DNA of 53,958 nt from Candidatus Woesearchaeota archaeon. Its GTDB lineage: Archaea; Nanobdellota; Nanobdellia; Woesearchaeales; DSVV01. The stretch lies in the NCBI GenBank assembly GCA_016219865.1, contig JACRKF010000027.1, positions 1-53,958 of the forward strand, written 5' to 3'. Position numbers and translations under genes: made by a program. Under the pieces are notes generated by a model. That model did no database searches, was not told where the DNA came from, and saw nothing but the letters and a program-made list of their open reading frames with translations. Positions 2,461 to 51,730 of the stretch are shown in pieces; the first letter of the stretch is position 1; each line of letters starts with the position of its first letter.

Positions 2461-3546
2461 CTAAAAACTCCTCATTCTCTCAAATTCCTTATACCTCGCA
2501 TCAATCTCTTTCAAAGTTAATCGCTTCATCCTTTCCAACGAGAAATCTTCTGCATTAAACGAAGCAATTGTTGAGCCATACACAACTGCTTTTTTTATAT
2601 TTGCAAATGACAGATTATCTGTTGCAGCTAAATATCCTATAAATCCGCCTGCAAAACAATCCCCGCAGCCAGTTGGATCTTTGATTACTTCTAATGGATA
2701 GCCAGGAGCATTAAAATGAAGCTCATTGCCATTATTATTTTGATTATGATTCTCATTGTCCGGATTGCATGGTTTTGAGAATTTTGCGGCTGTGCCGCAA
2801 AATTCTCTCGCAAATAGTAAAGCCCCATGCTCTCCTTTTTTGATGATGCAATACTGCACCCCTAATGCTAATGCTTTTTTAGCAGCCTGCGCAAGATTAA
2901 CTGTATCAAACAACATTCTTGCTTCAGCATCATTAATGACTAATACATTTACCTTTTTTATTATTTCAATCAATTTTTCTTTTGCAATCTGTATCCATAA
3001 GTTCATAGAGTCAAGCACAATAAACTTTGGATCACGCAATTGTTCAATCACCTTCAATTGCAGTTCAGGTGGATTATTTGCAAGAAGAATATATTTTGCA
3101 TCTTTATATTCCGCAGGAATATCTGCTGTAAAATCAGCTAATGAATTAAGCTCTGTCTTTAATGTATGCGCTTGATTCATATCAAATTCATATTTTCCTG
3201 ACCAACGAAAGTTCTTGCCATGTATTGTTACGCCTTGAAGATCAATATTTCTTTGGCGTAACAATTCAAAATGTTCTTTTGGAAGATCTTCGCCAGCAAT
3301 TGCAACTAAACCTATACTACTCTTATTTTCTGTAACTTTCATATTGTGCGGATTGCCTGATGAGGAGAATTCTGGGTGAATTAATTTGCTTTGCAAATTA
3401 TGGCTTTTATCATTGCAGAATTCTCCAAAGAATGAAGCAGCATAGCTTGCATATATTGCAGAGCCTCCTAAAGCATTCTTTATTTCACCAAACGGAGTAG
3501 AGATATCATCTAATCCAATGCTGCCAATAATTATCATTTGCGCCAT
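2461..3546 (-). CDS. PfkB-family sugar kinase with two unusual insertions
   Basis: N-terminal IIGSIGLDDI...LGGSAIYAS; C-terminal DPTGCGDCFAGGFIGYL. Confidence 0.85.
   Translation of the reverse strand: MAQMIIIGSIGLDDISTPFGEIKNALGGSAIYASYAASFFGEFCNDKSHNLQSKLIHPEFSSSGNPHNMKVTENKSSIGLVAIAGEDLPKEHFELLRQRNIDLQGVTIHGKNFRWSGKYEFDMNQAHTLKTELNSLADFTADIPAEYKDAKYILLANNPPELQLKVIEQLRDPKFIVLDSMNLWIQIAKEKLIEIIKKVNVLVINDAEARMLFDTVNLAQAAKKALALGVQYCIIKKGEHGALLFAREFCGTAAKFSKPCNPDNENHNQNNNGNELHFNAPGYPLEVIKDPTGCGDCFAGGFIGYLAATDNLSFANIKKAVVYGSTIASFNAEDFSLERMKRLTLKEIDARYKEFERMRSF
2755..2807. repeat. Palindromic element copy inside PfkB CDS
   Basis: ATTGTCCGGATTGC then GAGAATTTTGCGGC-tgt-GCCGCAAAATTCTC (perfect 14-bp stem). 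Confidence 0.8.
3343..3426. repeat. Second palindromic element copy inside PfkB CDS
   Basis: ATTGTGCGGATTGCC then GGAGAATTCTG ... CAGAATTCTCC, with nested TAATTTGC-ttt-GCAAATTA. Confidence 0.75.
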
Positions 3547-43945: not shown

Positions 43946-45328
43946 TTAAGTTTTCATCATCTTTTCAATATCCTTCAAATCAACGCATATTATTTTCTTA
44001 TCTGCATAAGTAGTTATCTTCTTTTTAAATGATTGCGCAAAGATAACAAACTCTTCTTTGCGTGATCCCATTTTCCATGAGATATATTCAGACTTCTTTA
44101 TTAGTTCCATTATGATTTCATCTGCATCAACGTTGTTTTGCCATTTGCATTCTCCAATGAGCAGTTTATTATCTTTTTCGCAAAATCCAAGAATATCTAT
44201 CTCATAGCAGTTTCTTCCTCTTTTTCCATCAAACTTGCCCCATTGCGCGCCTATCTTATCAAAATGTTTATCTTTAAAGATAATATTATTTTTGATTAAT
44301 AGCAATAGAAACTTTTCAAATTTCCTGCCGACATATGCGTTGAAATTATCATCAAATTTACTCTCAACTTCCTCAAACCTTTCTTGTTCCATCAAACTTT
44401 TCTGTCTGTCTATTGCAAAAAACCAAAAAGAAAGAAAATTATCAATTAATTCATATCTTCCTTCCCTCGATTTTTCTGGATTCTCTGTTATAGGAGTTAT
44501 CTTTTTAACAAAATTAAAATCTTTTCTGAGTATATCTAAATATTTTATTGCTTCATTTTTCTTATCGCTAAATAAACTTGCTATTTCATTAAGTTTAGTT
44601 TTGCCCTCAGCTATTGCTGAGATGATAGTATTATATGTTTTTGAATCTTTTCCAAATTCAACAGAAAGAATTATCTTGCCTTCTTCTTTTAATTGCGCTG
44701 CTTTCAATACAACTAATCGCTTTATATTCTCCCTTGGAGAAACCTTTCTGTTTATAAATTCATAATAATAGGGAACGCCCTCAAAGACAGACCATAGCTC
44801 TATAAATTCTTTCAGCGAAAAACCCAGTTCATGATACAAATCAAGCATTGGTAAGTTTTCAAGAACAATCTCATTTGTTCTTCTCCCATATAATGGAGAA
44901 GCAGCATCATTGAATACCTTATTCATCAATGAATAGCTTGAACCAGCAACAGCAACTTTAAATGTTTTATCTGTTAACTTCCGCTCATCGATTATCTTTT
45001 GTATCTCTCCATAGATCGATTTATCAATGGAAAAGAAGTTTTGAAATTCATCAAGAATTATCACTTTATTCTTATCTAATAGGTACTCTAAGATATCTTT
45101 AAAATTCTTAAATGCAGGGAGATTATTCTCTTTGCAAATCTCTTCACAGATCCAATCCATAGACTTATCTGGCCATATAAATAGATAGGTTGCTTCAGGA
45201 AAAGCTTTCCTCAAAAGCAATGTCTTGCCAATCCTTCTTCTTCCTTTTACAACGAGGAAGAAATTTCCTTTCAAATTCGCTAATTCCTTAATCTCCTTAT
45301 CTCTGCCAATAAACTTTATGTTTGCCAT
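43946..45328 (-). CDS. Archaeal AAA ATPase (DUF234-like C-terminal domain)
   Basis: KFIGRDKEIKEL, LVVKGRRRIGKTLLLRKAF, VIILDEFQNFF, VAGSSYSLMNKVF, C-terminal nuclease-like EIDILGFCEKDNKLLIGECKW. Confidence 0.85.
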   Translation of the reverse strand: MANIKFIGRDKEIKELANLKGNFFLVVKGRRRIGKTLLLRKAFPEATYLFIWPDKSMDWICEEICKENNLPAFKNFKDILEYLLDKNKVIILDEFQNFFSIDKSIYGEIQKIIDERKLTDKTFKVAVAGSSYSLMNKVFNDAASPLYGRRTNEIVLENLPMLDLYHELGFSLKEFIELWSVFEGVPYYYEFINRKVSPRENIKRLVVLKAAQLKEEGKIILSVEFGKDSKTYNTIISAIAEGKTKLNEIASLFSDKKNEAIKYLDILRKDFNFVKKITPITENPEKSREGRYELIDNFLSFWFFAIDRQKSLMEQERFEEVESKFDDNFNAYVGRKFEKFLLLLIKNNIIFKDKHFDKIGAQWGKFDGKRGRNCYEIDILGFCEKDNKLLIGECKWQNNVDADEIIMELIKKSEYISWKMGSRKEEFVIFAQSFKKKITTYADKKIICVDLKDIEKMMKT

Positions 45329-45518: not shown

Positions 45519-45659
45519 ATGAAGAAACCGATCTCCGCAACAATTGATGAAGAACTGATTAAATGGATAGATAAAAAGCTCAAAGATTCTACAACATATC
45601 GCAATAAATCACATCTGATAGAAATAGCGCTGCAAAAGATGAAGAAAGAGGATAAATAA
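45519..45659 (+). CDS. 46-aa ribbon-helix-helix protein overlapping the secretion ATPase start
   Basis: MKKPISATIDEELIKWIDKKLKDSTTYRNKSHLIEIALQKMKKEDK*; TAATG overlap; not in the supplied ORF track. Confidence 0.75.
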   Translation: MKKPISATIDEELIKWIDKKLKDSTTYRNKSHLIEIALQKMKKEDK

Positions 45660-48600
45660 TGCCAATTACACAAAAGAAGGACTGGGACTTTGAAGTGATA
45701 AAAGAAGGAGAAGAGAACATATTATACATCTATTGCGAAGGAGTAAGCATATCGCCATTGGTTGAAGATTCTAGTGTAGTTATGACCAGAACAATTGATA
45801 TTCTTTCTCAAGTCTCCGGCATTAGTAAAATAATCTTTAACCAAAAAAGAGATTATGAATATGATTTCAAACAAACACAGATTCTGGCAGAAATTTCAGA
45901 ACTCTACAAAAAATTAGTCAAAGAAAAGAATTATTTCAATTATCCCTCTGCAGGGAATTATGATAATAGACTTATTAACCAAAAATACAATGAATTGCGA
46001 GAAGTTATCTTTAAACATATGAAAGGAGATCCTATTGGCGCATATATTGAATTGACAAGGATAATAAGAAGAGAAAAGATAGATATTGAGAAATTAACAG
46101 AGCCAATATTGTTAGATATTACTAAGAGATATATCTCAATAATAAGCTATGTCATTAGTCTTCTTGAAAAAACAAGAATGTTGATTGCAGCAAAACCATA
46201 TATTGCAGGCTATAAGATAGGAGACAGAAGCGTCTACAAATATATCTTCACCCCTTCAATAAAGCCGGATTTTATGTTTACAAAATTGATGGCAAATTTT
46301 CCAAGCAATGCTGAAGAGATTGATTCATACACAATTGCAGAAGACACAGATGTTACAGTTTTTCGCCTGCCTAATTCAACATTAATACTTTATCACATTG
46401 TGCCGCCTGAGTTTAAATTGCCTGAAGAAAAATATGAATTATTGGATATGGCGCGAAAAATTCTTGCAGAACATAAACCAAAACAAGAAGAATTTACAGA
46501 TCCAGAAAGAATGCGGGAAGTTTTCTCCAGCATAGGCAAGGATTTATTAGAAGAAATTGCAACATCAAAGAATATCATGCTGCGAGAAAAAGAGCTGCAG
46601 AAATTAACACAAATTCTGGTAAGATACACAATAGGTTTTGGTTTGATTGAAGTATTGCTGCAAGACGATGATATGCAGGATATCTCAATTAATAGTCCAT
46701 TGGGAAAACTGCCAATATTTATTGTTCATGGAAAATATGGTGATTGCACAACAAATATTATTCCAACTAAATCAGAATCTGAAAGTTGGGCATCAAAATT
46801 AAGATTAATCTCAGCTCGTCCATTAGACGAAGCAAATCCAATTTTAGATACAGAATTGGAATTGCCTGGCGCATCTACGAGAGTTTCAGTTATCACACAG
46901 CCATTAAATCCAACAGGATTGGCATTTTCATTCAGAAAACACAGAGATAAGCCATGGACACTGCCATTGTTTATCAAATTCAAAATGTTAAGCCCAATTG
47001 CTGCAGGATTAATCAGTTTTCTAGTTGATGGAACGCGAACAATCTTAATTGCAGGAACAAGAAGCGCAGGAAAATCCTCTTTTTTAACAGGAGTGCTTGT
47101 TGAGATTATGAGAAAGTATAGAATAATAACTGTTGAAGATAGTGTTACAGGTGATTCTGAAATACTCATCAAAAATAACAACAGATGGCAAAGAACAACA
47201 ATAGGAAATCTTATTGACAAGCAGTTAGAAAAACAAGTTTCACTGCAAACATTTTCTGGACATGAGATTGCAGAAAATACAGATTATATTGAAATCTTTG
47301 CAATGAACAAAAAAGGAAAGATTGTAGTTGCAAAACCTTCTGTATTTATTCGACACAAAATAACAAAACCAATATATAAAATAAAAACAAGAACAGGAAA
47401 GATATTGAAAGTAACTGGTGATCATTCTCTATTTGCAATTGGAGAAAACGCAGAAATTTCAGAGACAAAAGTAAATAATCTGATTCTTGGAAATAAAATA
47501 GCTGTAGCAAGAAAATTGCCATTAGTCAATAAAGAAAAAGAATATATGGAAATATTGTGCGATGTAATTGAAAGGACAGATTCATTTATTAGAGGTTTAA
47601 CAACAAACTATTGTTTAGAACATCATTTTAATGATATAGCGTCATTTGGTTCAGCAAGAAATGTTAGTTATGCAACAATAAAAAGTTGGAGAAGAAACAA
47701 AATTCTTCCAGGATATATTGCAAAAGATCTTATAACACTTCATCAAACGCTTGACTTTTCAACAGATAGATTCAGAATAAATAATTCACAGATATTGATG
47801 CCATTAAAAATACAATTAACAGAAGATTTTATGACATGTATTGGTTTATGGATTGCAGACGGTTGTTATGACAAAAAATCAATTATCATATCCTGCAATG
47901 ATCCAGAAGATAGGGCAGTTGTAGAAAGAGTTGGAAAGAGTTTAGGAATACAATACAAAATGCATAGTGATGGCATTTCCTATATGCTCAATTCTAAAAC
48001 ATTAAAGGTGGTATTGCAAGACTTCCTTTTATGCACTGGAAATTCATACACAAAAAGAGTTCCTGAATGGATCTGCACCCTCTCGCCGCAGCAGATTGCT
48101 GCATTCTTACGAGGAGTATTCACAGGTGATGGCTGCGCAACAGACAAAGAAATAGCAATTAATCTCTGCAGCAAGCATCTTTTATATGATCTGCAGACAT
48201 TGCTTTTACTTTTTAATTGTAATCTTAGAATTGGAAATGTTAGAGTAAGAAATAAAACAACACGAGCTGCAATTTCTGGAAATGAATCTCTAACCAATTT
48301 TGCAAAATATATTGGATTTCTGCAACCATATAAAAACAATGTGCTTTCAAGACTTTGTGAGAAAAAGGTAATTCATGATACAACTGATACATTTGATTTA
48401 AGTTTATCAATAAAAAAACAACTTTCATATATTTTTAGAAATAAATTCAATACAAATGATTATATCAATAAAAATAATTGCATAGGAAGAAAAAAACTTG
48501 CATCTTTATTGCAAATAGAATCGCAAAAACAAACGCTAGAGTTGCAGCATCAAATACTGGGAAATCTAAAGCAATTGCTTGAATCAGACATATATTGGGA

Positions 48601-49510
48601 TGAAATTGTTGAAATTACGCCAATTCATGAATTTGAAGGATATGTCTATGATCTTTCTGTGCCTGAGTGTGAAAGCTTTATCTGCGGAAATATTATAGCG
48701 CACAATACTTTAGAATTGCCAAACAAAGCTTTCCGTGATCTTGGATTTAATATACAATCAATGAAAGTAGCAAGCGCATTAGCTCATGATTCAACAGAAG
48801 TTTCTGCTGAAACTGGAATTAGAACAACACTTCGTCTAGGAGATTCAGCATTGATTGTAGGAGAAGTAAGAAGTAAGGAAGCAGTTGCATTATACGAAGC
48901 AATGCGTGTTGGCGCTGCTGCAAACGTTGTTGCAGGAACAATCCACGGTGATTCACCTTATGGTGTATACGACAGAGTTGTAAATGACATAGGTATTCCT
49001 AAAACATCTTTCAAAGCAACAGATATTATTATTGTTACAAATCCAATAAAATCTGCAGATGGTATGCATAAATACAAAAGAGTTACACAAATAACAGAAG
49101 TTAGAAAACGTTGGGAAAATGATCCAATGCAGGAAAAAGCATTTGTTGATCTGATGAAATACGAGCCAAAAACAGATGAATTATTGATTACACCTGATTT
49201 AAAGAACGGAGATTCAGAAATCCTTAAAGCAATTGCAGGAAATGTAAAAGAATTTGCAGGCAGCTGGGATGCAGTATGGGATAATATTCTCTTAAGAGGA
49301 ACTATAAAAGAAAACATTGTAAAGATGGCTGAACAAATGAAGAATGACGAATTATTAGAGGCCCCATTTGTCATAAAAGCAAATGATATGTTTCACATAA
49401 TCTCTGAAAAAGTAAAAGAAGAAGTTGGATTTTTAGACAGTAAAAAAATACTTTTTCAATGGAATGATTGGTTAAGCAGAGAAGTAAAGAAAACTCAAAA
49501 AATCGAATAG
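45659..49510 (+). CDS. Type II/IV secretion (FlaI/TadA-like) ATPase containing an intein
   Basis: LIAGTRSAGKSSFL Walker A; IITVED/TLELPNKAFRDLGFNIQSMK Asp box split by intein; RLGDSALIVGEVRSKEAVALYEAMRVGAAANVVAGTIHGDSPYGVYDRV. Confidence 0.93.
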   Translation: MPITQKKDWDFEVIKEGEENILYIYCEGVSISPLVEDSSVVMTRTIDILSQVSGISKIIFNQKRDYEYDFKQTQILAEISELYKKLVKEKNYFNYPSAGNYDNRLINQKYNELREVIFKHMKGDPIGAYIELTRIIRREKIDIEKLTEPILLDITKRYISIISYVISLLEKTRMLIAAKPYIAGYKIGDRSVYKYIFTPSIKPDFMFTKLMANFPSNAEEIDSYTIAEDTDVTVFRLPNSTLILYHIVPPEFKLPEEKYELLDMARKILAEHKPKQEEFTDPERMREVFSSIGKDLLEEIATSKNIMLREKELQKLTQILVRYTIGFGLIEVLLQDDDMQDISINSPLGKLPIFIVHGKYGDCTTNIIPTKSESESWASKLRLISARPLDEANPILDTELELPGASTRVSVITQPLNPTGLAFSFRKHRDKPWTLPLFIKFKMLSPIAAGLISFLVDGTRTILIAGTRSAGKSSFLTGVLVEIMRKYRIITVEDSVTGDSEILIKNNNRWQRTTIGNLIDKQLEKQVSLQTFSGHEIAENTDYIEIFAMNKKGKIVVAKPSVFIRHKITKPIYKIKTRTGKILKVTGDHSLFAIGENAEISETKVNNLILGNKIAVARKLPLVNKEKEYMEILCDVIERTDSFIRGLTTNYCLEHHFNDIASFGSARNVSYATIKSWRRNKILPGYIAKDLITLHQTLDFSTDRFRINNSQILMPLKIQLTEDFMTCIGLWIADGCYDKKSIIISCNDPEDRAVVERVGKSLGIQYKMHSDGISYMLNSKTLKVVLQDFLLCTGNSYTKRVPEWICTLSPQQIAAFLRGVFTGDGCATDKEIAINLCSKHLLYDLQTLLLLFNCNLRIGNVRVRNKTTRAAISGNESLTNFAKYIGFLQPYKNNVLSRLCEKKVIHDTTDTFDLSLSIKKQLSYIFRNKFNTNDYINKNNCIGRKKLASLLQIESQKQTLELQHQILGNLKQLLESDIYWDEIVEITPIHEFEGYVYDLSVPECESFICGNIIAHNTLELPNKAFRDLGFNIQSMKVASALAHDSTEVSAETGIRTTLRLGDSALIVGEVRSKEAVALYEAMRVGAAANVVAGTIHGDSPYGVYDRVVNDIGIPKTSFKATDIIIVTNPIKSADGMHKYKRVTQITEVRKRWENDPMQEKAFVDLMKYEPKTDELLITPDLKNGDSEILKAIAGNVKEFAGSWDAVWDNILLRGTIKENIVKMAEQMKNDELLEAPFVIKANDMFHIISEKVKEEVGFLDSKKILFQWNDWLSREVKKTQKIE
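47141..48706 (+). other. Intein (522 aa) with LAGLIDADG homing endonuclease
   Basis: Starts SVTGDSEILIKNN; block B KVTGDHSLFAI; CIGLWIADGCYD and FLRGVFTGDGCA; ends YVYDLSVPECESFICGNIIAHN followed by +1 Thr. Confidence 0.93.
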
Positions 49511-49522
49511 AGGAAGTTTTTT

Positions 49523-51730
49523 ATGACAGATAAAGACGAAGAAATGAAAAGATTAATGGAAAAATATAATCAAAAGATGAATCAGCAGTTTGGAGAATCT
49601 TCGTTTGAAGAATATAACCAAAAACCAATAACAAGTATTGAATATGAAAAATTCAAAAAAGAGCGTATGCCTAAAATATTAACATTGTATGAAAAAACAT
49701 GTAATTTTTGCGGTAATATTTTAAAATTAAAACCTGGAAAAGAAGATGAAGCAGACATAATTGAATCATTAAGAGTTGCGCATATTGAAACAACACCTGA
49801 AGGCGTAACTAGTTTTTCTATATTTATTCCATTCTTAATTGTTATAACAGGCGTATTATTAAGTATTGTAATACCTGGAATCTTTGGTAAACCGCCTAGC
49901 ACATTTTTTATAATAATATTTATCTTCGTTGGACTAGTAATGATGTTTACTCTGAAATCATTGCCGCGATTTTTCGCAGACCATTACAGATTAGAAGCAA
50001 GCAATGAGATGGTATTATCTATTTTCTACATTGTAACCTACATGAGGCACACATCAAATTTAGAGCTTGCAATTCGTTTTGCATCTGATCATTTAACAGG
50101 ACAATTAGCATTAGATTTAAAGAAAGTACTATGGGATGTTGAAACAGAGAAATATGGTAATATCAAAGAATCAATTGACAATTACTTAGAAACTTGGAGA
50201 AAATGGAACATGGAATATATTGAAGCATTCCATCTAATTGAATCTTCATTATACGAAACTTCTGAACCTAGAAGAATTGAGATGTTAGAAAAAAGCCTTA
50301 ACTTAATTCTCAGTGAAACATATGAAAAGATGTTGCATTATGCTCATAATTTAAAATCACCAATTACCATGCTCCACATGTTAGGAATAATACTGCCAGT
50401 TTTAGGATTAGTTATGTTGCCATTGATTGTAAGCTTTATGGGAAATGTAAAATGGTATTATATTGCAACACTGTATAATGTTATACTTCCAATCGGTGTA
50501 TATTATATGGGAAAAAACATACTTTCACAGCGTCCAACAGGTTATGGTGATACTGATGTCAGCGATGAAGTGCCAAGTTTAAAAAAATACAAGAATATCA
50601 ATTTTAAATTAGGAGTTGTTGAATATTCCATTAATCCTGTGTATCTGTGCATTGGTATCGGCGTGCTTTTTTTTCTCATCGCATTATTGCCTGTAATGTT
50701 GCATGGAGTAGGTTTTCCTGATCTTGGTTTCGGTGAAGAAGATAAAGGCACAGGTTGCATGAAAACATTTTGTTTATTAGATTACAGAGAAGTAAAAACT
50801 GAAGAAGAAACATTTGTTGTTGGTCCATTTGGATTTATTGCCTCTATTTTGAGCTTATTCTTTCCATTAGCAATTGCTTTCTCATTAGGTTTGTACTATA
50901 AGATGAGCAGCCAGAATATTATCAAAATTCGAGAAGACACAAAAAAGCTTGAAAACGAATTTGCTTCAGGTTTATTTCAACTAGGCAACAGATTAGGTGA
51001 TGGAATCCCAGCTGAAAGCGCATTTGGAAAAGTTGCAGAAATTATGCAGAACAATGAAGCTGGCAGATTTTTTTCAATTGTCAATCAAAATATCATAAAA
51101 TTAGGAATGGATGTAGAAAGCGCAATATTCAACAGCAAAACAGGCGCAATTGTCTCATTCCCATCACAGATGATCAATAGTTCTATGAAAGTACTGATCC
51201 AATCAGTGGAAAAAGGCCCAAAGATTGCTGCGCAATCTCTAGTAAATGTTTCTCGTTATATTAAAGAGATGCATCGTGTTAATGAACGATTAAAAGATTT
51301 ATTAGCAGATGTTATTTCTTCAATGAAATCTCAGATAAGCATGATGGCGCCAGCAATTGCAGGAATTGTTGTAGGCATTACATCAATGATTGTTAACATT
51401 CTCGGAAAGCTTGGTCCTATGTTGCAGGCAAAACAAGCAGAATCATCAGGAGTAGCAGGAGCATTTCAAGGAGTTGATTTCTTTAATGTTGGCATACCAG
51501 TATATTACTTTCAACTTGTTGTAGGAATTTATGTTGTGCAAATAATTTATATTCTGACTATTTTAGTAAATGGAATAGAGAACGGCACTGACAAACTGCA
51601 AGAGAATTATTTGCTAGGAAAAAATCTTATCAGAAGCACAATGATTTATGTAGGAATATCATTAGTAGTAATGATTGCATTCAACCTTATAGCAAATGCT
51701 GTTATCGGCGGAGTTCTAGGTGCAGGATAG
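49523..51730 (+). CDS. Type II secretion F / TadC-FlaJ-like membrane protein
   Basis: Multiple TMs, directly downstream of the ATPase; FASGLFQLGNRLGDGIPAESAFGKVAE. Confidence 0.8.
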   Translation: MTDKDEEMKRLMEKYNQKMNQQFGESSFEEYNQKPITSIEYEKFKKERMPKILTLYEKTCNFCGNILKLKPGKEDEADIIESLRVAHIETTPEGVTSFSIFIPFLIVITGVLLSIVIPGIFGKPPSTFFIIIFIFVGLVMMFTLKSLPRFFADHYRLEASNEMVLSIFYIVTYMRHTSNLELAIRFASDHLTGQLALDLKKVLWDVETEKYGNIKESIDNYLETWRKWNMEYIEAFHLIESSLYETSEPRRIEMLEKSLNLILSETYEKMLHYAHNLKSPITMLHMLGIILPVLGLVMLPLIVSFMGNVKWYYIATLYNVILPIGVYYMGKNILSQRPTGYGDTDVSDEVPSLKKYKNINFKLGVVEYSINPVYLCIGIGVLFFLIALLPVMLHGVGFPDLGFGEEDKGTGCMKTFCLLDYREVKTEEETFVVGPFGFIASILSLFFPLAIAFSLGLYYKMSSQNIIKIREDTKKLENEFASGLFQLGNRLGDGIPAESAFGKVAEIMQNNEAGRFFSIVNQNIIKLGMDVESAIFNSKTGAIVSFPSQMINSSMKVLIQSVEKGPKIAAQSLVNVSRYIKEMHRVNERLKDLLADVISSMKSQISMMAPAIAGIVVGITSMIVNILGKLGPMLQAKQAESSGVAGAFQGVDFFNVGIPVYYFQLVVGIYVVQIIYILTILVNGIENGTDKLQENYLLGKNLIRSTMIYVGISLVVMIAFNLIANAVIGGVLGAG

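Follow-up and report, generated by a model that had tools for sequence, protein, structure and literature searches.

Positions 47141–48706 of the window, the whole 53,958-nucleotide contig of a Candidatus Woesearchaeota archaeon analysed here, very probably encode a class 1 LAGLIDADG intein, a self-splicing and homing mobile element inserted at the catalytic Asp box in a motor ATPase of the type II/IV-secretion (pilus-type) kind. Judged from sequence, it is most likely a selfish intein which removes itself from a core motor by splicing and relies on homing to spread.

Precursor gene and intein domains

The open frame 45659–49510 (+) codes for a precursor of 1283 amino acids (aa) in a single frame. 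At the 5′ junction, GTT GAA GAT (GAT at 47138–47140) is followed by AGT GTT ACA (AGT at 47141–47143); at the 3′ junction, GCG CAC AAT (CAC AAT ending at 48706, AAT at 48704–48706) is followed by ACT TTA GAA (ACT at 48707–48709). The intein thus comprises 1566 nt, or 522 codons, and the limits and junction given in the preliminary description are exact to the base. Its in-frame removal leaves an ATPase of 761 aa in which ITVED/TLELP (the slash marks the junction here and below) is rejoined as ITVEDTLELP, the restored motif that had been proposed; this product can be aligned over its whole length with orthologues that have no intein, as is characteristic of precise class 1 splicing. The features of the region are as follows.

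45659–47140 (+), N-extein, 494 aa, ending ITVED; N-terminal domain plus the first half of the RecA-like core (alignable with 2oap and CpaF)
47054–47080 (+), Walker A/P-loop GTRSAGKSS, unoccupied here; some relatives carry an intein after the lysine (GTRSSGK/C)
47141–48706 (+), intein, 522 aa, Ser1 to Asn522, between extein residues Asp494 and Thr495
47141–47515 (+), N-terminal Hint splicing half, aa 1–125, block A SVTGD (intein_Nterm and Intein_splicing; limits approximate)
47414–47425 (+), block B TGDH (T92, H95); T, D and H invariant in 27 of 27 alleles
47516–47812 (+), fast-evolving region, aa 126–224, between Hint half and endonuclease, identified by allele identity; position of a putative accessory (DNA-recognition) domain
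47813–48370 (+), LAGLIDADG homing endonuclease core, aa 225–410 (LAGLIDADG_3; limits approximate)
47837–47863 (+), block C CIGLWIADG, catalytic Asp240; acidic in 27 alleles (26 D, 1 E)
48104–48133 (+), block E FLRGVFTGDG, catalytic Asp330; acidic in 27 alleles (26 D, 1 E)
48575–48706 (+), C-terminal Hint half, aa 479–522, block F YVYDLSVPECESF and block G NIIAHN (Intein_splicing and intein_Cterm)
48707–49510 (+), C-extein, 267 aa plus stop, starting TLELP; holds Walker B GEVRS and the His box
49523–51730 (+), 735-aa hydrophobic protein, 12 bp downstream of the ATPase; candidate membrane partner, by position

On these matches the identity of the insert as an intein is far beyond chance. It scores well over the Pfam cut-offs for Intein_splicing (E 2.6e-25; 89 bits, cut-off 35.8) and LAGLIDADG_3 (2.6e-15), and over the NCBIfam cut-offs for intein_Nterm (51.6 bits, cut-off 24.5) and intein_Cterm (16.0, cut-off 15.6). 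Its best PDB sequence match is PI-PkoII (1e-18). Ser1, Thr92, His95, Asp504, His521 and Asn522 are invariant across all 27 site-equivalent alleles. All 27 end in HN, and the +1 residue is Thr in every allele except that of G416, which has Ser. Block F reads VYDLSVP, with YD, and the C-terminus AHN; both LAGLIDADG acids are Asp or Glu throughout. The DNA, Pfam and the allele alignment therefore bear out the Ser1 and Thr+1, the block B TGDH and the two LAGLIDADG motifs of the preliminary description. Ser1, block B TxxH, a penultimate His with a terminal Asn, and Thr+1 together are the sequence features of class 1.

Residues 126–224 are the least conserved among the 27 alleles (mean identity 23%, versus 48% for the neighbouring domains) and have no family match above cut-off. 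In related inteins this position holds accessory domains, for which a role in changing the DNA target has been proposed (PMC8966425). A structure prediction of the intein from a three-row alignment reached a mean pLDDT of 35 and a pTM of 0.21, too low for a fold to be read from it.

In the proposed mechanism, the precursor would be translated as one chain, and the Hint domain would excise the intein by an acyl shift at Ser1, aided by the Thr and His of block B, then by attack of Thr+1 and cyclization of Asn522 with His521. The exteins would thereby be joined into the 761-aa ATPase. The excised intein, acting as an endonuclease, would cut the corresponding DNA site of alleles that lack it, and repair of the break would insert a copy of the intein, at times together with a short stretch of the adjoining DNA. 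We infer splicing itself, endonuclease activity, inactivity of the ATPase before splicing, and the kind of machine that the ATPase drives.

Host ATPase and source genome

The host had initially been described as a FlaI/TadA-like secretion ATPase. The spliced protein scores 52.4 bits against Pfam T2SSE (cut-off 24.9), and the description stands at superfamily level. It does not stand at family level: the protein reaches 127.7 bits against FlaI (NF058587), under the equivalog cut-off of 550, and 110.9 bits against TadA (TIGR03819), under the cut-off of 373. Its nearest PDB sequences are the type II secretion protein 2oap, followed by CpaF and FlaI. Since neither cut-off is reached, we call it a GspE/CpaF/FlaI-superfamily motor, and ‘pilus’ or ‘secretion’ is for the same reason a family-level guess.

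By our reading of the alignment, the junction Asp494/Thr495 lies two residues before Glu497, which is aligned with the ASP-box Glu312 of CpaF; this correspondence is supported by Walker B Glu547, which aligns with CpaF Glu357 at the same offset. Glu312 of CpaF is near the water-activating Mg2+ of the active site (PMC11300603). A homologue of the ATPase is present in 98 of the 99 relatives searched. One T2SSE-family ATPase was detected in the window genome itself (1.34 Mb), a 91% complete draft in 55 contigs in which a second copy could be missed. Because the active site is split and one copy was detected, the machine would depend on splicing, and the motor can presumably be made solely in that way. 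The earlier suggestion that secretion or adhesion depends on splicing is retained to this extent, as a dependence argued from the single T2SSE-family ATPase, and not in its naming of the process, where the family-level caution applies.

The 735-aa protein downstream is 94% identical in the public record L055, where it also adjoins the ATPase. It has no Pfam or NCBIfam match, so that its candidacy as a partner derives from its position. Divergent to the motor operon, at 43946–45328 (−), is a 460-aa protein that by eye resembles archaeal AAA ATPases and has a nuclease-like C-terminal part.

An N-terminal intein model finds six inteins in the window genome, this one included. Their hosts, assigned by reading the translations, are the motor ATPase, SMC, CDC48, a HerA-like ATPase, a MoxR-like ATPase and GyrB. 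The other five are at L002, L003, L004, L005 and L058; the SMC intein follows the P-loop lysine, and the GyrB intein is short and has no obvious endonuclease.

Distribution, mobility and selection

Alleles at the same site were searched for with a profile of four alleles, near-full-length matches with E <= 1e-40 being required. The ED/T site of the orthologous ATPase is occupied by the intein in 17 of the order's 353 genomes, and the class contributes at least 7 further ones; the other 336 genomes of the order have no full-length site-equivalent allele, a count in which endonuclease-less mini-inteins at the Asp box would escape because of the length requirement. The closest public record with an allele is L055, from a Candidatus Woesearchaeota archaeon (84% intein identity). 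A draft in 55 contigs might in principle join an unrelated intein to an ATPase gene, but such an artefact or chimera is hardly credible here and is refuted by independent alleles: besides the congener G001 (L055), more than 20 other genomes have the same junction. G170 (L164, L165) was considered as a split intein and rejected, as its contig break with identical overlap is an assembly break within an Asp-box allele.

An intein-free ATPase gene is present in most relatives, and the check for such alleles proposed in the preliminary description found them in many orthologues, 53–73% identical over their full length. In G357, G441, G446, G466 and G469 the Asp-box intein is found in a paralogous ATPase, approximately 28% identical to that of the window, again at the homologous position; the inteins of these five form one strongly supported branch of the intein tree. 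A search of a viral collection gave one distant match, in an unrelated protein. This is a GATase/QueC-type deazaguanine enzyme-like protein on a viral contig (L100:4501-7326), with an intein about 32% identical over the endonuclease part.

Presence and absence of the intein on a tree of 78 ATPases require 16 changes, of which at least 11 are forced by well-supported branches. In the intein tree, G282 groups with the window's family in a single clade (support 100/100), which the exteins reject (p-AU 0.0035, for groups chosen, as in all the AU tests, after the trees were seen). As the intein and extein trees conflict, the evidence says, at the level of phylogeny, that the Asp-box intein has moved horizontally between lineages. 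Against monophyly of the inteins, the rejection is weak both for family f38 (p-AU 0.038) and for the order (p-AU 0.043). The group G061, G173 and G195 is not counted as a transfer, the extein clade implied by the intein tree not being rejected (p-AU 0.163).

Within one genus, the intein is present in G298 and absent from G297, whose ATPases are 96% identical. Left of the site, 10 of 27 bases differ between the two, versus 62 of 1173 further out (Fisher p 1.2e-6); right of the site, 4 of 15 differ, versus approximately 8% further out (p 0.03). This tract is co-conversion-like and would match a short co-conversion from a diverged donor. Together with the conflict between the trees, it lends indirect support to cleavage of intein-free alleles by the endonuclease. 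A gain in G298 is favoured over a loss in G297, since the other congeners are intein-free. The insertion site is among the top 5% most DNA-conserved windows of the ATPase gene, and this conservation suits a homing target.

Between G000 and G001, dN/dS is approximately 0.17 for the intein (0.12 in the LAGLIDADG region) and approximately 0.02 for the N- and C-exteins; by this measure the intein is under purifying selection. These values bear on whether the intein is decaying or dead, without splicing, and the ATPase a pseudogene in the window genome. Decay does occur in a related allele, the frameshifted and truncated Walker-B-site intein of G522, but the window allele has an open frame, lacks none of the catalytic residues and shows a dN/dS far below 1 for intein and extein alike, and the extein values are not a pseudogene pattern; we regard a dead intein as very improbable. 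The dS between the same two genomes is 0.47 for the intein, 1.20 for the N-extein and 0.58 for the adjacent 735-aa gene. A recent exchange of the intein between them, considered on the basis of its low dS, was set aside as not convincing because the adjacent gene has a similar value.

The motor as an intein target and comparison with known systems

Orthologues of the ATPase carry inteins at two further catalytic motifs: directly after the Walker A lysine in G355, G527, G535 and G536, and at Walker B, after GE(V/I)RS, for example in G007, G071, G437, G531 and G533. Some hold two, at the Asp box and Walker B (G437 and G522) or at Walker A and Walker B (G355 and G527). The paralogue has another site, GMA/S...HN/SG, occupied in G047 and G446. 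We give even odds to the wider proposal that in DPANN archaea the type IV filament/secretion motor serves as a target with several sites, like haloarchaeal MCM, with separate inteins, sometimes two, at Walker A, the Asp box and Walker B, and that a jump of the Asp-box intein to the approximately 28% identical paralogue was aided by its fast-evolving accessory region.

Several of these alleles are unusual in size or state. In G527 (L158) and G355 (L159), the gene is a single open frame of approximately 1960 aa in which the two inteins jointly outweigh the host protein. The Walker-A inteins of G535 (L156) and G536 (L157) are very large, roughly 670–700 aa, and, in common with those of G527 and G355, have a long additional stretch ahead of the C-terminal Hint half. 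The Walker-B intein of G522 (L160, about nt 3350–3420) lacks its N-terminal part and is frameshifted; the frameshift would break the ATPase and is either real decay or an assembly error.

The three separate sites, all in catalytic motifs, together with the split active site of a motor detected in a single copy, could be taken to mean that the intein is a conditional switch, its slow or environment-dependent splicing controlling pilus or secretion activity and hence its retention by the host. Some inteins of ATPases, that of mycobacterial DnaB for one, are documented to splice conditionally (PMC6195587, PMC7360933). We nevertheless consider a switch unlikely, given the patchy presence of the intein (the 16 changes on the host tree and the 336 genomes of the order without a full-length allele) and the evidence for mobility, which already accounts for its persistence. 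If splicing were conditional, the assembly of a surface structure would be linked to an intein. The selfish, homing intein remains our preferred reading.

Inteins have hardly been surveyed in DPANN archaea, a 2023 survey having included two DPANN genomes (PMC10643990). In the open literature, we found no paper that joins inteins and Woesearchaeota secretion ATPases, and an earlier listing in InBase or in the 2016 MBE survey is possible. With the present data, the range of intein targets comes to include a cell-surface filament/secretion motor, from a group of uncultured archaea. The occupied, empty and doubly occupied alleles of close relatives amount to a natural experiment in which homing, co-conversion and the interference of adjacent inteins can be studied, and approximately 20 full-length inteins with Ser1/Thr+1 junctions are available for splicing work.

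Among solved structures, the best sequence match is PI-PkoII, the Pol-2 intein of Thermococcus kodakarensis (PDB 2cw7/2cw8), whose host is a DNA polymerase. It has in common with the window intein a Hint domain with an inserted LAGLIDADG endonuclease and a similar total length; by sequence, the two can be aligned only at the Hint ends and over the second of the LAGLIDADG repeats. The KlbA intein of Methanocaldococcus jannaschii MJ0781 (PDB 2jmz) likewise has a host that we take to be an archaeal secretion-ATPase-like protein; it is not among the PDB matches of the window intein at E <= 0.1, and MJ0781 is named in no paper found in the open literature. KlbA-type inteins are of class 2, with Ala1, Ser replacing the penultimate His before the terminal Asn, and Cys+1 (PMC4031507), whereas the window intein has Ser1, His521 and Thr+1; a class 2 assignment was rejected on these residues.

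Several intein sites per gene are known in haloarchaeal MCM and PolB (PMC10643990). Mycobacteriophage TerL, a phage packaging motor, has inteins at several independent sites, including Walker A and Walker B, which cluster in one ATPase domain as do those of the motor described here; the Asp-box site is not described among them in the available part of that paper (PMC5050341). Because multi-site targets such as haloarchaeal MCM and TerL are known, the motor is a new case and not a new principle. The chemistry and mobility, too, are of an already known kind, that of class 1 LAGLIDADG inteins; as far as searched, what is new is the insertion site in the Asp box, and that in DPANN archaea inteins target this motor at several sites. 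VMA-b, MCM-a and other archaeal Walker-motif inteins likewise occupy the nucleotide-binding site of oligomeric ATPases, but the VMA-b and MCM-a sites are in the P-loop of replication or ATP-synthase proteins, whereas the window intein has a type IV filament/secretion motor as its host and lies in the Asp box.
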